Shown here piece after piece: positions 4,103-56,429 of a stretch of DNA of 64,000 bases. A model generated the notes under the pieces. That model saw nothing but the letters and a program-made list of their open reading frames with translations, was not told the DNA's origin and ran no database searches. Source of the stretch: Thermococcus peptonophilus (GTDB taxonomy: Archaea; Methanobacteriota_B; Thermococci; Thermococcales; Thermococcaceae). The stretch lies in NCBI RefSeq assembly GCF_001592435.1, contig NZ_CP014750.1, positions 372,001 through 436,000 of the forward strand, in the 5' to 3' direction. A program made the position numbers and the translations under genes. The first letter of the stretch is position 1. The number at the start of each line of letters is the position of its first letter.

Positions 4103-4207
4103 AGCCTCAACAAGTTTTTATTCGCTAGATTTGGCATTTCGTGTCTTTTCTTAGGTGTTCTAGGCATCTAAAGCCTTTTTGAATTTTGTTAGGATACCCT
4201 AAAATTC

Positions 4208-4247
4208 CCTGCAGATTTATCTCTCAGATTTTTGGGTGAGTTGTTAC
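4208..4247 (+). repeat. Left arm of long imperfect inverted repeat
   Basis: This block matches the reverse complement of 5881-5918. The core GATTTTTGGGTGA at 4227-4239 is identical to the inverted 5888-5900, and the flanking ATTTATCTCT and TTGTTA are also shared. One base is missing in the right copy near CTGCA. The arms lie about 1.7 kb apart and enclose the AT-rich island. Confidence 0.75.
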
Positions 4248-5252
4248 TTTAGTATAACATAAGTTAATTAATTAATATTAGTTTTATAAAAACCAACTCA
4301 AAAATTTTCCGTATAAATACGAAATAAAAATAAAAATACATTCAAAATAATATATACGATAAAATTACGTTTTAATAATATAGAAAATCATAAGTTTTTA
4401 CAATATTGAGTTGTTAAAAGGACAAAACCATGGCCAATAGAGGGCCAGCAGAAAAGGCGCAAGCTACAGCGACAAATGGGCAATGAATGAATTATAATGC
4501 CCACTCAAAACAGAGGAAGTTGCATAGATAAGCCCGCTATCATACAACAACTTCTAGTTACAATTAAAGGTAGTTATAAACCAACGTGCAGGGGAATCTG
4601 GAAAGAAATATAAGCTGAGCCCACAGTCACCCATACTACCCCCACCCTCAGTGGGAGAATGTATACTCACAAACTAATCGAAAGTTAGAAGTTCACAAAA
4701 AGTTACTTGTCCAGACCTTTCCAAGATACTGGAAGTAGCCTTGAGAGGATCCTCAATGAGAGATAATAATTCACTCCTAGACTACCTTTTCCAGAAAAAT
4801 AGAGCGAGCTCTTGAAAGACCCCAAATACGAGCTTGGCGAAAAATAGAACGGGGGTATAACAGACAATAGCTCTGGACTAATCAGAATCTCAGTTATGAT
4901 AGGGGGGCATGCACTACAAGTAGAGAGTTGGGTCCCTTTGTATTTCCTACCAAAATGTAAGTATAATCCCAAACTTTTTTCTTTTTAATGTCCGGTATTG
5001 TCCATCAGTTTGTCATATAAGGTACATTATATCAAAAACTGCAGTACAAAAATGGGCACTTACATCATAGTTAACCAAATAAGAGCAAGACACATATAGC
5101 TTCAGCAGGTAACTAGCACAGTGTTATACTTAACCCATGGCAGGGTTTATTCATCAGGAACTTCTTATGGGAACCAGTTTCTCCGATAAGACGACCTTCA
5201 TCGCTGGTCTCGTTATTGGGGTGCTTATTTAAATAATATGAAGCCAAGTAAA

Positions 5253-5715
5253 CTACCTGCCTAAAAGTGACCATATGGGATCATTAACGGCAACATGTTT
5301 AATATCATCCTCGATACTATTCTCAAAGACTCTCCCGATCAATCTTCTAAGAAACGGAGTTTTTATCGCTTGAATCACATCCAGCTTTCTCTCTTGTCTC
5401 CAAAGTGGGAGTGCTCTCAAATAAGGTTGGTTTTCGTGATTCCCATAGCAGTATCTAGAAATGACTACAGTTGTCTTGCGTTTTTGGGTTGTCGGTATTT
5501 CAAAAGGGGGTCTATCAACATGGTAGTGGAGATCTTCTAGATTAAAATCCTGCTAACCTCATCGGCCGATAACTATCTTTCATCGTAATGAAAAACTGGT
5601 CTTGTGATAGCGGGCTTCTCGCTTGAATAATTAGCATTCTTGACATTCGGCCATTTCTAGGAATTAAATGTTCGTCTTTGTCTATTTAACGTCAGGAAGT
5701 AGTACAAATTTGCCA
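5253..5715 (-). pseudogene. Decayed minus-strand gene inside the AT-rich island
   Basis: Starting at the ATG at 5715, the frame reads MANLYYFLTLNRQRRTFNS, a stop, then protein-like sequence ending KPAITRPVFHYDER, another stop, then LSADEVSRIL. A one-base shift leads into a 99-codon stop-free stretch at 5552-5253 with no start codon, containing YCYGNHENQPYLRALPLW and QERKLDVIQAIKTPFLRR. The amino-acid make-up is that of a real soluble, charged protein rather than a chance frame. The family is unknown. A TATATATTTTTA-like promoter lies near 5805-5815. Confidence 0.5.
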
Positions 5716-5880
5716 TTTTCTACTACTAATAATAGTTTTTAAAAACTTCAAATTTTTTAAGTATATTAGAGAAACCCAAATATTAGATAAAATACAAAGC
5801 TAAATAAAAATATATAAGTGTTTTATCAAAATAAATGAAATTAAACGCAAGCAAATTTTTGAATTTAAGATTATAAAACG

Positions 5881-5918
5881 TAACAATTCACCCAAAAATC
5901 CAAGAGATAAATTGCAGC
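5881..5918 (-). repeat. Right arm of long imperfect inverted repeat
   Basis: This is the inverted partner of 4208-4247. Read on the minus strand it gives CTGCAATTTATCTC followed by TGGATTTTTGGGTGA and TTGTTA. Identity is about 85 percent by eye over 40 bp. It may be a terminal inverted repeat of a decayed mobile element. Confidence 0.75.
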
Positions 5919-5973
5919 AAGAACCAAGAATGAACTTGCAAAGAAAAAGGCACAAAAGAGACCTAAAAAGAAA

Positions 5974-18598: not shown

Positions 18599-18690
18599 GT
18601 TGCAATAAGACTCTAAGAGAATTGAAACGTGATCTTCTCAACATCCCAACAATGTTTAGTTGCGAATTGAGACTCTAAAAATACTTCTCA
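18599..18690 (+). CRISPR. Minimal or remnant CRISPR: one repeat, one spacer, one degenerate repeat
   Basis: Bases 18599-18627 (GTTGCAATAAGACTCTAA followed by GAGAATTGAAA) are a typical Thermococcales CRISPR repeat, related as I remember it to the Pyrococcus repeat ending in AGAATTGAAAG. About 31-33 bases of unique sequence follow. A damaged repeat then starts at 18659-18661, keeping GTTGC and AGACTCTAA but with a lost 3' half. Downstream there is no further repeat. No cas genes lie in the window, so any processing would rely on cas genes elsewhere. It may be a young, shrunken or dying array. Confidence 0.7.
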
Positions 18691-51916: not shown

Positions 51917-52094
51917 TCATCCGAGCGTCTTAACGACAAAGGCCAGCAAATCCGTAAGCTCCCTCACCCTCGTCTCCGGCGATGTGCCCATGTGCCCGCT
52001 CTTTGTCTCAACTCTGAGATAGACCGGTGCTCCAACCTCCTTCAGCTTCATAAAGAACTTGAGGGCGTGAGCCGGTGGACGCTGTCATTCTAAC
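51917..52094 (-). pseudogene. 3' remnant of prolyl oligopeptidase (POP) gene
   Basis: Ending at 51917 the minus strand encodes HALKFFMKLKEVGAPVYLRV, then ETKSGHMGTSPETRVRELTD and LLAFVVKTLG, the POP C-terminus with the catalytic-His motif KSGHMG. Just upstream the codons NDSVH correspond to the catalytic-Asp region, but one C is missing in CCACCGG so the frame shifts near 52080. Beyond about 52094 the homology ends. The rest of the gene lies 3.1 kb away at 55179-56345. Confidence 0.85.
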
Positions 52095-52394
52095 AGGAAT
52101 CCAAGGAAGTTTAAAAACAGAGTCTTAATCCCCCATAAAAATCAGACAACTTTCGTTTTGCTGGATTGCATGCTTCTTCAGGCTCTGTTAATACTCCATT
52201 ATGCTAGTATTATTTTAGTTCTCTAACGAGATTCCTGGAACTTTCCACAGTCCTTTAATTCATCATAATCCATAATTCTAAAGGTTAGTTAGAACTATTG
52301 CTCATAATAGTGTTAATAACTTTTGGTTAATAACTTAATGGCAACAAAAAAATTTAAATTTCAAATTCTAATGGTAAATATTGGTGATGGCCCT

Positions 52395-52541
52395 ATGGAT
52401 GAAAACTTCAAGATAAAACGATTTGAAGGAAGATTGGCACAGGCATGGAGTGAAGTCGACGAAGGAAAATTCGTTGGGGTGACTCTGAAAGGACATCTTG
52501 CAAATCACAATAATGCAGACCCGTTTTTAATGGAGTTCTGA
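52395..52541 (+). CDS. Candidate RiPP precursor peptide
   Basis: The 48-residue peptide reads MDENFKIKRFEGRLAQAWSE, then VDEGKFVGVTLKGHLANHNN and ADPFLMEF. The ATG at 52395 is chosen because GGTGATGG sits 5 bp before it and an AATTTAAATTTC TATA-like box lies about 30 bp upstream. The frame is open further (ATG 52371, ATG 52338, TTG 52323) without ribosome sites. It lies 79 bp before a radical SAM/SPASM gene. The sequence has no Cys, so it would not be a sactipeptide or lanthipeptide; Trp, Phe, Asn and His residues are candidate modification sites. The role is inferred from context only. Confidence 0.6.
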   Translation: MDENFKIKRFEGRLAQAWSEVDEGKFVGVTLKGHLANHNNADPFLMEF

Positions 52542-52620
52542 ATTTCAATAATAATTTTATTTTTTGAGATCATCTAACAATGTTCAGCATTGTAGAATGA
52601 AAAGGGTTGGGGGTGATTAA

Positions 52621-53748
52621 ATGAGATACATCAATGGCAGCTTTTATCTTGAACCGATTTCAGCCCATATAGATGTCACTAATAAATGTAATTTGAAATG
52701 TATGTACTGCTTTTATTATGAGGATCCTTACGTCCAATTGCCTAATGGAGATCCCTCAAAAGATGAAATCTTGGATTGGATGAACCAGTTGGCAGAAGTT
52801 GGAGTTAAGTTTCTGACTTTTTCTGGGGGAGAAGCATTTATGAGACAGGATTTCTTGGAGATTCTTAGCAGTGAAACTTCAGAGAATTTCTGGAAAACAA
52901 TTATAACTAATGGAACTCTTCTCGACGAACAAACAGTAGGAAAATTGGGAAATATTCCAAAACTTCTAGAATTAAGAGTTTCTCTGGACGGTTTTGATGC
53001 AAATAAAAAAGTTAGAGGAGTGGATGCAAAAGTTATCGTACGGAATATTGACTTTATTGGCAAAATGACTGATATACCAGTGCACATAAATACTATGATA
53101 ACAACTGAAAATCTCCACGAACTTGAAAAAATGTATGAATGGATTGAGCAACATGAAGCAATCTCCGGTTGGTCAATTGATCTTCCAATCATCAGAGGAA
53201 GATATATCTCCGTGATGGATGCGCTTAGACCCTCTTGGTCAAATATGGCACCAGTTTTAAAAAGATTGATCTTACGTTACATTGACGAGAGACCCCCGTT
53301 CAAATTTGCAATATTCTCAATATTTAGGGAGAGCCTACTATACCCTGACAAAATCAAAGATAGAATCTATAGTTTTGACCTAGAGTCCCATCCATGCAGC
53401 TATTTGCCCTCAGTAACAATTAGAACGGATGGTTCTGTAACACTTTGCCCAAGTTTGCCATTTAGTATAGGAAATGTTCGAGAGAGACCCCTGAGGGATA
53501 TTCTGAAGAGTCCGGATCCGGGTAGTGAAAGAGTGCTGGGAATACGAGTAAGGGACATCAAAAAATGCTTAAGTTGTAAGTATGTAAAAATCTGCGGTGC
53601 TGGTTGTAGAGCTAATGCATTTTTAGAAACAGGAAAACTCATTGAAGTGGATCCTGTTACCTGCAAGATGATGGAGTTTTTTGATAGTGAGATATTGCCC
53701 TATTTGCCAAGGAAAAGCAGGGAGTTGATAGAGGGATACTTGACTTAG
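52621..53748 (+). CDS. Radical SAM/SPASM peptide-modifying enzyme
   Basis: The 375-residue protein has the radical SAM cluster motif in HIDVTNKCNLKCMYCFYYED (CX3CX2C), the SAM-binding LTFSGGEAFMR, and a C-terminal SPASM region with Cys residues in SHPCSYL, VTLCPSL, IKKCLSCKYVKICGAGCRAN and PVTCKMMEF that would hold extra 4Fe-4S clusters. SPASM enzymes modify ribosomal peptides (PqqE, AlbA, anaerobic sulfatase maturases). GGGGGTGA precedes the ATG. Low G+C and position inside a broken gene suggest transfer. Confidence 0.87.
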   Translation: MRYINGSFYLEPISAHIDVTNKCNLKCMYCFYYEDPYVQLPNGDPSKDEILDWMNQLAEVGVKFLTFSGGEAFMRQDFLEILSSETSENFWKTIITNGTLLDEQTVGKLGNIPKLLELRVSLDGFDANKKVRGVDAKVIVRNIDFIGKMTDIPVHINTMITTENLHELEKMYEWIEQHEAISGWSIDLPIIRGRYISVMDALRPSWSNMAPVLKRLILRYIDERPPFKFAIFSIFRESLLYPDKIKDRIYSFDLESHPCSYLPSVTIRTDGSVTLCPSLPFSIGNVRERPLRDILKSPDPGSERVLGIRVRDIKKCLSCKYVKICGAGCRANAFLETGKLIEVDPVTCKMMEFFDSEILPYLPRKSRELIEGYLT

Positions 53749-53789
53749 CCAGAATACTCTGTGTTGATTTTTCTCCTGCGGTGAGAAAA

Positions 53790-55157
53790 ATGCAGCACAA
53801 CAAAATCCAAGAAATTAGACAGGAGATACTTACTGGAGATATAACAAAAACTATTCTTAAACTTTCTTTGCCTCTAGTTTTTTCAACATTGATTCAGCAG
53901 CTTTATAACTTAGTCGATACTTTTTGGCTCGGATTTTTTGGAAAAATCGCTCTCTCCACACCCGGAACTGCACTGCCGTTGGTAACGACCTTAATGCACG
54001 TTGGTCTAGAGTTTTCAGCAGTGGGTGCAATATTCATTGGACAATACGTTGGAGCGGGGGAATATAAAAAGTACGGAAAATTAATTGGTGCGGTCTATTC
54101 TTTTATGCTTATTTCTTCTGTTATCACCTTAATCTTGGGGATACTTATAATCCCTTACGCCTTGGAGTTCATGAGGGTCCCTCCTTCCGCTTATTCGTAT
54201 GTTAGGGAGTATCTTATAATACTCTATATTGGGATTCCCTTCTCTTTTTTGTTTGCGGCAAGTTTGTCTGTAATAAAGGCATTCGGGAGAACCAAACTTG
54301 CTATGAAGCTCAGCATTTTAGCAATTGTTATTAACATGATTCTTGATCCAGTAATGATTTTTGGTCTGTTCAGTCTTCCACGCCTGGGCGTTAGGGGTGC
54401 TGCTCTATCAACTGTTACAGCGGATGTAATCGTCTGTATAATCTCCCTTTATATTGTCTTCTCTGGGGGGATGGAGATATCGGTAAAAGTTCAGGACCTT
54501 AAACCTGATTTGAGGTTCTATGGGAAAATTCTGAGAAAGGGTATACCACTCGCCTTTGGTTCATTGGTAAATGACATAACAACAATCATTATGATTAGAT
54601 TGATCTATGGATTTGGGATAGCAACATACGCAGCTTATTTGATCATTATAAGAATAGTGAAGCTCTTAGAGAGTTTCACTGTTGGAATAGCAAGTGGCAC
54701 AGGTATAATGATCTCCCAAAATATCGGGGCTGAAAAATATGAAAGGGCAAAAAAAATAGCAAGAAGGGCCATGGTATTGAATTTCGGGGTTTCTAGTATT
54801 GTAGCTCTATCCTTAGTTGTTTCAAGAGAGTATATTGTAAGAGTATTTGTAAGCGACGTTCAGGTCTTGATTGAGAGTAAGAATGTCATTCCTTTAATTC
54901 TCTCGGTGCCTTTCTTTACGGGGATATTCTTAATAGTGAACAACGTCTTCAAGTATTCTGGACACACAAGGGAGTCCCTGGTGCTTAGAATGATAAGGCT
55001 TTGGGGCCTTAGATTGCCACTAGCATATCTTTTTGGATATATTATTTTCAACTCGTCTGCAGGTTTGTTTTGGGGCTTAGGAATGAGCAATGTGGTCTCA
55101 GCATTCATTGCCATAATTTTCTTCCTCATGATCCCCTGGACAAAAAAAATTATTTAG
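53790..55157 (+). CDS. MATE-family multidrug/peptide exporter
   Basis: The 455-residue protein has about 12 hydrophobic helices in two MATE repeats: LKLSLPLVFSTLIQQLYNLVD, TFWLGFFGKIALSTPGTALP, IFIGQYVGAGEYKKYGK and, in the second half, ASGTGIMISQNIGAEKYERA. It is a Na+ or H+-driven efflux pump. The start at 53790 follows GGTGAG; a GTG at 53781 overlaps that site. It lies 41 bp after the radical SAM gene, so export of the modified peptide is a natural reading. Confidence 0.88.
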   Translation: MQHNKIQEIRQEILTGDITKTILKLSLPLVFSTLIQQLYNLVDTFWLGFFGKIALSTPGTALPLVTTLMHVGLEFSAVGAIFIGQYVGAGEYKKYGKLIGAVYSFMLISSVITLILGILIIPYALEFMRVPPSAYSYVREYLIILYIGIPFSFLFAASLSVIKAFGRTKLAMKLSILAIVINMILDPVMIFGLFSLPRLGVRGAALSTVTADVIVCIISLYIVFSGGMEISVKVQDLKPDLRFYGKILRKGIPLAFGSLVNDITTIIMIRLIYGFGIATYAAYLIIIRIVKLLESFTVGIASGTGIMISQNIGAEKYERAKKIARRAMVLNFGVSSIVALSLVVSREYIVRVFVSDVQVLIESKNVIPLILSVPFFTGIFLIVNNVFKYSGHTRESLVLRMIRLWGLRLPLAYLFGYIIFNSSAGLFWGLGMSNVVSAFIAIIFFLMIPWTKKII

Positions 55158-55178
55158 TGTAGACCAACTCAATAATCT

Positions 55179-56345
55179 GCCGTTGCTCCTACCCCATGCA
55201 GCGACCTTGTAACCGTTTTTCTTGAGCTTCTCAAGGACGGCTATGAAATCATCGAAGACGTTCTGCTTGTTCTCCCTCATTCCCGCCCTGTGCCACTCCT
55301 CGCCGTATTCACTACCCCCACGCAGGTTGGCCATTGCAAAGGTTCCGCCGCGTCTGATGAACGGAATCGCCTGCGGGAAAAACCTTGGGGTGAGCGAGAT
55401 GTTGAATCCTCCGTATCCGAAGACCAGACCTTTTTATCGTCCTTCTCACCCCTGACGTGGAAGTAGTGAATCTTGGTACCGTCCTTTGATGTTGCAAAGT
55501 CCTCTTCAACCGTGAACTCCTCTTCGATCTCTTGCTCCCCAATGAGCTTCAGCTCGCCCTCAAACTCGTAGAGCCTGTAGGGAACCGTAAAGCTCTCGTA
55601 GCGGAGGAGAGCCTTTTTGCCATCAGAACCGAGGGGATATACACTCCCGGGAAGATCAAAGGCTATCTCATCGAGCTTTTCACCGTTGAGCGAATAAACC
55701 TCAAGCCTGTGGCTCGCGTGGACAAGCCTGCCGGCAAGGATTCTGTCGCCAACGACCAGTGCCCATTCGAGCGGTAACTCCCCCTCTGGGATGAAACCAT
55801 TTTCTCTCTGCTCTTGTCCTTCCAGAAGAGCCTCACCGCGGGCGCTTTGCATCCATCTGGAGTCTCGCCGTACCTGTAAAAGCGTGAAAAGTAGTAGCCG
55901 TTCTCTAGGAAGGTTACGTTCCCCACAGAGGGCTTGAGCACATCTAGGAGCTCGCCACTCTCAAGGTTAATTATCCTCGTAACACCTTCGTCCGCCCTGT
56001 CGATTGAGAAGCTGTATACGACCTTTTGCCCTTTCCGTAGGCAGTAAATCCCTGAAGAAGAACTTCATCGCCGATTTCGGCCTCAAGCGCCTTTGAGTTA
56101 ACTATGACATCGCCATTAAGCCACCTTATAACCTGCCCCTCCTTCTCCTTGAACATTGCGATGATGCCCTTCTCCGTGAGCCTGGCACTGTGGAGAGTTG
56201 GAAGTGAATACAGCTCCCATAACTCCGGGAACAGCTCGTCGCTCAGCTTCCCGATGAATTCCCTAAAACGCCTGTTTTCTTCCTCGACGAGCTTCAGAAC
56301 GCGCTCATCCTGGAGGTTCTCCATCCAGATGTAGGGATCTTCCAT
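55179..56345 (-). pseudogene. 5' remnant of prolyl oligopeptidase (POP) gene
   Basis: From the ATG at 56345 (GGTGG upstream) the frame reads MEDPYIWMENLQDERVLKLV and continues as the POP beta-propeller. The frame shifts near 56030 (after AYGKGKR), near 55800 and near 55430 (after EKDDKKVW), and then runs to the catalytic Ser motif AAWGRSNG at about 55180, where homology stops. POP cleaves after proline in short peptides. With at least three frameshifts plus loss of the Asp/His region from this part, it cannot make active enzyme. Confidence 0.87.
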
Positions 56346-56429
56346 GAAAACCACCATCTTAACGTTGAGTCTCCAGCAATAAAAAGGTTGTCTCAGAGTC
56401 GCCAGCGAGCCTTATTGGGAAAATGTTCC

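Follow-up and report, generated by a model that had tools for sequence, protein, structure and literature searches.

A probable horizontally acquired, RRE-less radical SAM peptide cassette with an undescribed precursor family in Thermococcus peptonophilus

Introduction

The question raised by this locus is whether a 48-residue open reading frame and the two genes behind it make up a pathway for a modified peptide (RiPP) in a hyperthermophilic archaeon. An earlier note on the stretch of DNA analyzed here (64,000 nucleotides of the Thermococcus peptonophilus genome, below called the window) described three adjacent same-strand genes in a low-G+C insert, and all three open reading frames could be confirmed at their positions. 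In order, they encode the 48-aa peptide, a SPASM radical SAM enzyme and a MATE transporter. The source genome, a Thermococcaceae genome of 1.9 Mb, contains the archaeal HgcE and HgcG RNAs; the same-genus comparison set comprised 61 genomes. Judged from sequence comparison, the locus is likely to be a horizontally acquired three-gene radical SAM RiPP cassette that lacks an RRE and carries an undescribed precursor family.

The insert and its target gene

The insert is approximately 3.1 kb long and has a G+C content of 0.378 vs. 0.516 for the window (Table 1). A GGTGA ribosome-binding site is found before each of the three genes, and a single TATA-like box lies ahead of the trio. The TTTAAATT at 52353 together with the GGTGAT at 52383 places the start of the peptide gene at the ATG at 52395, in agreement with the earlier note, which had seen an SD sequence right before the ATG of the 48-residue frame. 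Just 3' of the peptide gene there is a T-rich stretch (52556–52569), and a similar stretch is seen in the G030 cassette described below. Partial termination of transcription there could yield more peptide message than enzyme message. A scan with a sigma-70 promoter and terminator model was set aside, as the model is unsuited to an archaeon.

Table 1. Features of the cassette and its borders in the window, and related cassettes in other Thermococcaceae genomes.
Feature	Position	Strand	Basis
C-terminal remnant of interrupted prolyl oligopeptidase gene	51923..52086	-	78% to nt 1720–1878 of the intact gene
Low-G+C insert, ~3.1 kb, in place of 79 prolyl oligopeptidase codons	52087..55175	.	Alignment to intact G014 gene; same junctions in G012; G+C
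TATA-box-like TTTAAATT, ~25 nt upstream of predicted start of short leader	52353..52360	+	Sequence; position conserved in G012
Putative ribosome-binding site GGTGAT, peptide gene	52383..52388	+	Sequence; conserved in G012
Predicted 48-aa precursor peptide MDENFKIKRFEGRLAQAWSEVDEGKFVGVTLKGHLANHNNADPFLMEF	52395..52541	+	Residues 13–47 invariant in G012; no family match
Putative ribosome-binding site GGTGAT, radical SAM gene	52612..52617	+	Sequence
375-aa SPASM radical SAM enzyme without N-terminal RRE	52621..53748	+	Pfam/NCBIfam matches, Cys pattern
Putative ribosome-binding site GGTGAG, MATE gene	53780..53785	+	Sequence
455-aa MATE-family exporter, ATG start	53790..55157	+	TIGR00797, PF01554; ATG preferred over GTG 53781
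N-terminal remnant of prolyl oligopeptidase gene, with frameshift and internal deletion	55176..56366	-	Alignment
G021 cassette (L009): 49-aa ORF, two SPASM enzymes, ABC exporter			Enzymes 34% and 32% to window enzyme
G030 cassette (L011): 34-aa ORF with own TATA-like box and GGTGATG, two enzymes, MFS exporter			
G130/G133 cassettes (L093/L092): 52-aa ORF, one enzyme, ABC exporter			ORF conserved between both

Alignment to the intact gene of Thermococcaceae genome G014 showed that the cassette replaces nt 1483–1719 of a prolyl oligopeptidase gene, with identical junctions in the source genome and in a second genome, G012. The lost segment begins where the catalytic-Ser motif GRSNGG ends and extends to approximately HPAHALKF near the catalytic Asp. 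In the window the N-terminal remnant also has a frameshift and is missing ≈268 bases compared with G012. The host gene, which was matched in 52 of the 61 genomes of the genus, has been destroyed by the cassette. The G012 gene is 92.6% identical to that of G014 before the insert and 81% after it.

Elsewhere in the window, ≈1.9 kb of low-G+C DNA (4103–5973) without a convincing gene is bounded by nested long inverted repeats. The arms include a 59-nt pair (4215–4273 and 5854–5912, 75% complementary) and further pairs at 4381/5737 and 4527/5594. Another low-G+C intergenic stretch contains a single CRISPR-DR6-like repeat at 18599–18628 (Rfam, 45.5 bits), perhaps a relict array.

The peptide gene

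A frame of 48 codons is by itself not above chance (P ≈ 0.03 per ATG at the local composition). The case for coding rests on residues 13–47, as only two sequences are available and dN/dS over the full length is just 0.38 (five nonsynonymous and three synonymous changes between the source and G012). Aligning the peptides, as the earlier note had proposed, showed this block to be invariant in the two species, with just two changes, both synonymous, over its 105 bases (98% DNA identity). Non-coding identity to G012 is 83% upstream (303 aligned bases) and 76% between the peptide and enzyme genes (75 aligned bases). Given the pooled non-coding divergence of 18%, the probability of two or fewer changes in 105 bases is 2e-7; that of finding 83 sites free of nonsynonymous change, had they evolved at the synonymous rate of the cassette itself, is 8e-6. 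Residues 1–12 change fast (four nonsynonymous changes), and the last residue is also freer. We infer from the SD sequence and from purifying selection in residues 13–47 that the frame is translated.

The peptide contains no Cys, which excludes thioether classes, as the earlier note had argued. No family match was found in NCBIfam (E up to 1), Pfam, PADLOC or PDB sequence searches, and a motif scan for WGK, KxxxW, Aro-Xaa-Asn, TVG and other known core motifs found none of them. The nearest thing to Aro-Xaa-Asn is His38-Asn39-Asn40, and no such motif with W, F or Y is present. Weak matches in G037, G126 and at a second place in G012 (E 0.25–0.6) were ascribed to chance, since no convincing small gene was found there. 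The coverage of genome contigs was a single scan with six exact peptide patterns. With two members, the family is too small to separate leader from core.

The radical SAM enzyme

The second gene product matches Radical_SAM (3.8e-20) and SPASM (1.1e-7) in Pfam. The CX3CX2C motif is intact (C23-x3-C27-x2-C30), and the Cys-rich tail described in the earlier note turned out to be a full seven-Cys SPASM pattern (C259-x11-G-x4-C276, C316-x2-C319-x5-C325-x3-C329, C348). Compared with G012, dN is 0.0205 and dS 0.145 (dN/dS ≈ 0.14), indicating purifying selection. The first cluster Cys is residue 23, which leaves an N-terminal stretch of just 22 residues, without an RRE. No PqqD/RRE domain scored over the cut-off anywhere in the source genome, and the cassette contains no leader peptidase gene. 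The earlier note had likewise seen neither a leader peptidase nor an RRE at the locus. RRE domains are common, not obligatory, in radical SAM RiPP pathways. G012 has a stand-alone 111-aa PqqD-like protein (L082, C1:182634; 50.5 bits) unlinked to its cassette, flanked by peptidase-like and membrane transporter-like genes.

The best NCBIfam match of the enzyme is the heme b synthase AhbD (103.6 bits), an identity we reject as the cut-off is 500. The score against the WgkB model is 81.5 bits (cut-off 650). As the enzyme lies far below every NCBIfam equivalog cut-off, homology does not prove its substrate class. PDB sequence searches returned anSME, SkfB, viperin, MoaA, PqqE and other SPASM peptide maturases, while SuiB was the top Foldseek match. 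The sequence and fold neighbors therefore include enzymes that modify peptides or proteins (anSME, SkfB, SuiB and PqqE) in addition to viperins and MoaA. The AlphaFold model used for Foldseek was built from a four-sequence alignment and is weak (mean pLDDT 56.7), so the ranking is only supporting. PADLOC pVip matches raised the possibility of a prokaryotic viperin (defense), which was rejected because it is the generic radical SAM core that these profiles pick up, and because the SPASM domain of the enzyme is complete.

The exporter

The third gene product belongs to the MATE family, as the earlier note had stated (TIGR00797, 201.3 bits vs. a cut-off of 147.4; PF01554, 142.8 bits, 9.6e-42). 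Its start had to be moved: the GTG at 53781 sits inside the SD sequence GGTGAG, and translation probably begins at the ATG at 53790. The protein is a third, divergent MATE copy, 45–49% identical to ordinary Thermococcaceae MATE proteins, and is also under purifying selection (dN 0.027, dS 0.145, dN/dS ≈ 0.19 vs. G012). Among specific NCBIfam models, that of the solanimycin exporter SolL scores best (181 bits, under the cut-off of 780). The WgkD model gave 73.3 bits (cut-off 510).

Distribution and horizontal transfer

A search for the trio in other archaea, suggested in the earlier note, identified it in one other Thermococcus species, G012, where the small frame is included. The cassette is thus present in two of 94 family genomes. 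No copy turned up among 396 genomes sampled more widely from the same domain, or in plasmid records. Plasmid and phage records gave no notable relative (one plasmid enzyme at 27%), and viral contigs only two distant SPASM enzymes. Related enzymes occur in a Clostridia MAG (L007) and on an archaeal contig (G276), with no peptide-rSAM-MATE trio on the stretch examined.

The whole trio travelled together: the junctions are the same, and dS between the source and G012 is 0.145 for the cassette genes vs. 1.2–2.0 for their neighbors (1.2–1.96 for four neighboring genes). A dS so far below that of the neighbors indicates horizontal movement. The exchange between the lineages would have included some flanking DNA and taken place long after the two species had separated, with homologous recombination as the simplest route.

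Sibling cassettes in Thermococcaceae

Three further Thermococcaceae cassettes of the same plan, in G021, in G030 and in the pair G130/G133 (Table 1), contain the SPASM enzymes closest to that of the window. Their G+C content is 0.36–0.40, lower than in the surrounding loci. Their small ORFs do not align with the window peptide beyond chance, and none has an NCBIfam match. An A-x-x-W-x-E-V motif common to the peptide and the G021 small ORF was discarded, as it is not significant against shuffles (p = 0.14; G030 ORF, p = 0.75). For the G021 enzyme, the nearest of the siblings, the best model is WgkB, at 129.9 bits.

We tentatively suggest, as something slightly less than an even bet, that Thermococcaceae carry mobile, fast-turnover radical SAM RiPP cassettes in which the precursors are unrelated and MATE, ABC and MFS exporters are interchangeable. 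Such a set would amount to a peptide armory of hyperthermophilic archaea that has been little described. The window member might then make a new heat-stable linkage or modification, since an RRE-less SPASM enzyme would act on a Cys-free core without known motifs.

Weighing the alternatives

An RiPP cassette is the best account of every part of the locus: the constrained first ORF, the peptide-type SPASM enzyme, the pump and the mobility. Counting against it are the lack of an RRE, protease or immunity gene in the cassette, the lack of a known core motif in the peptide, and the T-rich spacer between the peptide and enzyme genes, which could end transcription. The small ORF might instead encode an unmodified small protein (a regulator or transport accessory), in which case the radical SAM enzyme would act on some other protein or a small molecule for export by the MATE pump. 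MATE pumps mostly export small molecules, and the best specific matches, SolL for the exporter and AhbD for the enzyme, along with the weak viperin-like matches, point the same way. The AhbD and viperin scores are, however, far under their cut-offs or of a size common to many SPASM and radical SAM proteins. The insert has no other biosynthetic gene, the peptide is constrained and travels with its enzyme, and a small ORF also comes first in the sibling SPASM cassettes. We therefore regard this alternative as unlikely.

Much less probable still is an untranslated ORF, the DNA of which would be conserved as a leader RNA or as an element that regulates the radical SAM and MATE genes. In favor of this, the changes over the 48 codons, known from two sequences, are not concentrated at synonymous sites. 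Against it stand the SD-ATG spacing, the unchanged residues 13–47 and the lack of any indel in the frame between the source and G012, although the flanks have indels; Rfam gave no match over the region, and its folding energy is no better than that of shuffles (z = -0.96). A decaying or chance assembly, i.e., a horizontally acquired fragment without function, would fit the rarity of the cassette and its location in a broken gene. This we consider the least probable explanation, as the three frames have stayed open in both species and both the enzyme and the pump are under purifying selection.

Proposed pathway

For the RiPP cassette we propose the following scheme. A short leadered transcript, probably shared by the three genes, would carry the peptide gene first and yield the 48-residue Cys-free precursor. 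The SPASM enzyme would bind it without an RRE and modify residues within 13–47 by 5'-deoxyadenosyl-radical chemistry. The modification may be a carbon-carbon or carbon-heteroatom crosslink or an epimerization, with W18, K25/F26, H34, H38-N39-N40 and F44 as candidate residues. Trimming would fall to a host peptidase encoded outside the cassette, and export to the dedicated MATE pump, which would also protect the producer.

The product would most likely act as a secreted antagonist (archaeocin-like) or a signal; only the rarity and mobility of the cassette suggest the antagonist role. With a secreted modified peptide, these archaea would have a type of weapon or signal that has scarcely been documented among them. 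A peptide modification that survives hyperthermophilic growth would be of interest to enzymologists and peptide chemists. A mobile, RRE-less system of three genes is about minimal for such a pathway, and the cassette is therefore directly testable by co-expression.

Comparison with known systems

Streptide-type (KxxxW) systems with SuiB or StrB resemble the cassette in having a Cys-free precursor and a SPASM enzyme, which in streptide makes a C-C crosslink. SuiB-type enzymes carry an N-terminal RRE. Unlike these, the window peptide has no KxxxW and its enzyme no RRE. The Cys thioether donors typical of sactipeptide and ranthipeptide precursors are absent. Epipeptides (YydF/EpeE) are similar in having a precursor without Cys cross-links, a radical SAM epimerase and an exporter, and leader-independent activity has been reported for them (PMC8326336). 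They differ in that the window peptide has no NCBIfam match, the exporter here is a MATE and no protease gene is present. YydG reached only E ≈ 6e-4 in the PDB sequence search with the enzyme.

Two- and three-gene pathways with a peptide, a radical SAM enzyme and an optional transporter are known in bacteria and have been mapped by sequence-similarity networks; archaeal sequences make up 6.5% of the UniRef90 members of the enzyme family concerned (PMC9062424). The whole-pathway plan is the same, whereas their Aro-Xaa-Asn, thioether and TVG motifs are absent from the window peptide. The tryglysin operon wgkABCD of streptococci likewise has a small precursor gene, a SPASM radical SAM enzyme and a transporter gene last (PMC8092268), the transporter being classed as a MATE by NCBIfam. 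The window cassette shares this order of precursor, enzyme and transporter, but has a precursor of 48 aa rather than 21 aa, no WGK motif, no RRE protein WgkC and no Rgg-type regulator gene in the insert, and does not reach the WgkB and WgkD cut-offs. A literature search of partial coverage turned up no description of a radical SAM RiPP in Thermococcales.

As the plan is already known from bacteria (PMC9062424; PMC8092268), this is not a new kind of pathway. The modified-peptide pathway proposed in the earlier note is the best-supported reading, with the small ORF constrained and the trio kept in G012, so that neither of the two outcomes named there as refuting was observed; its "undescribed" holds for the peptide family only, within NCBIfam, Pfam, PADLOC and PDB. 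To that note the analysis adds the horizontal origin, the insertion site in a prolyl oligopeptidase gene, the corrected MATE start and the sibling cassettes. In layout, the cassette is best read as most like the tryglysin- and streptide-type operons while belonging to neither.
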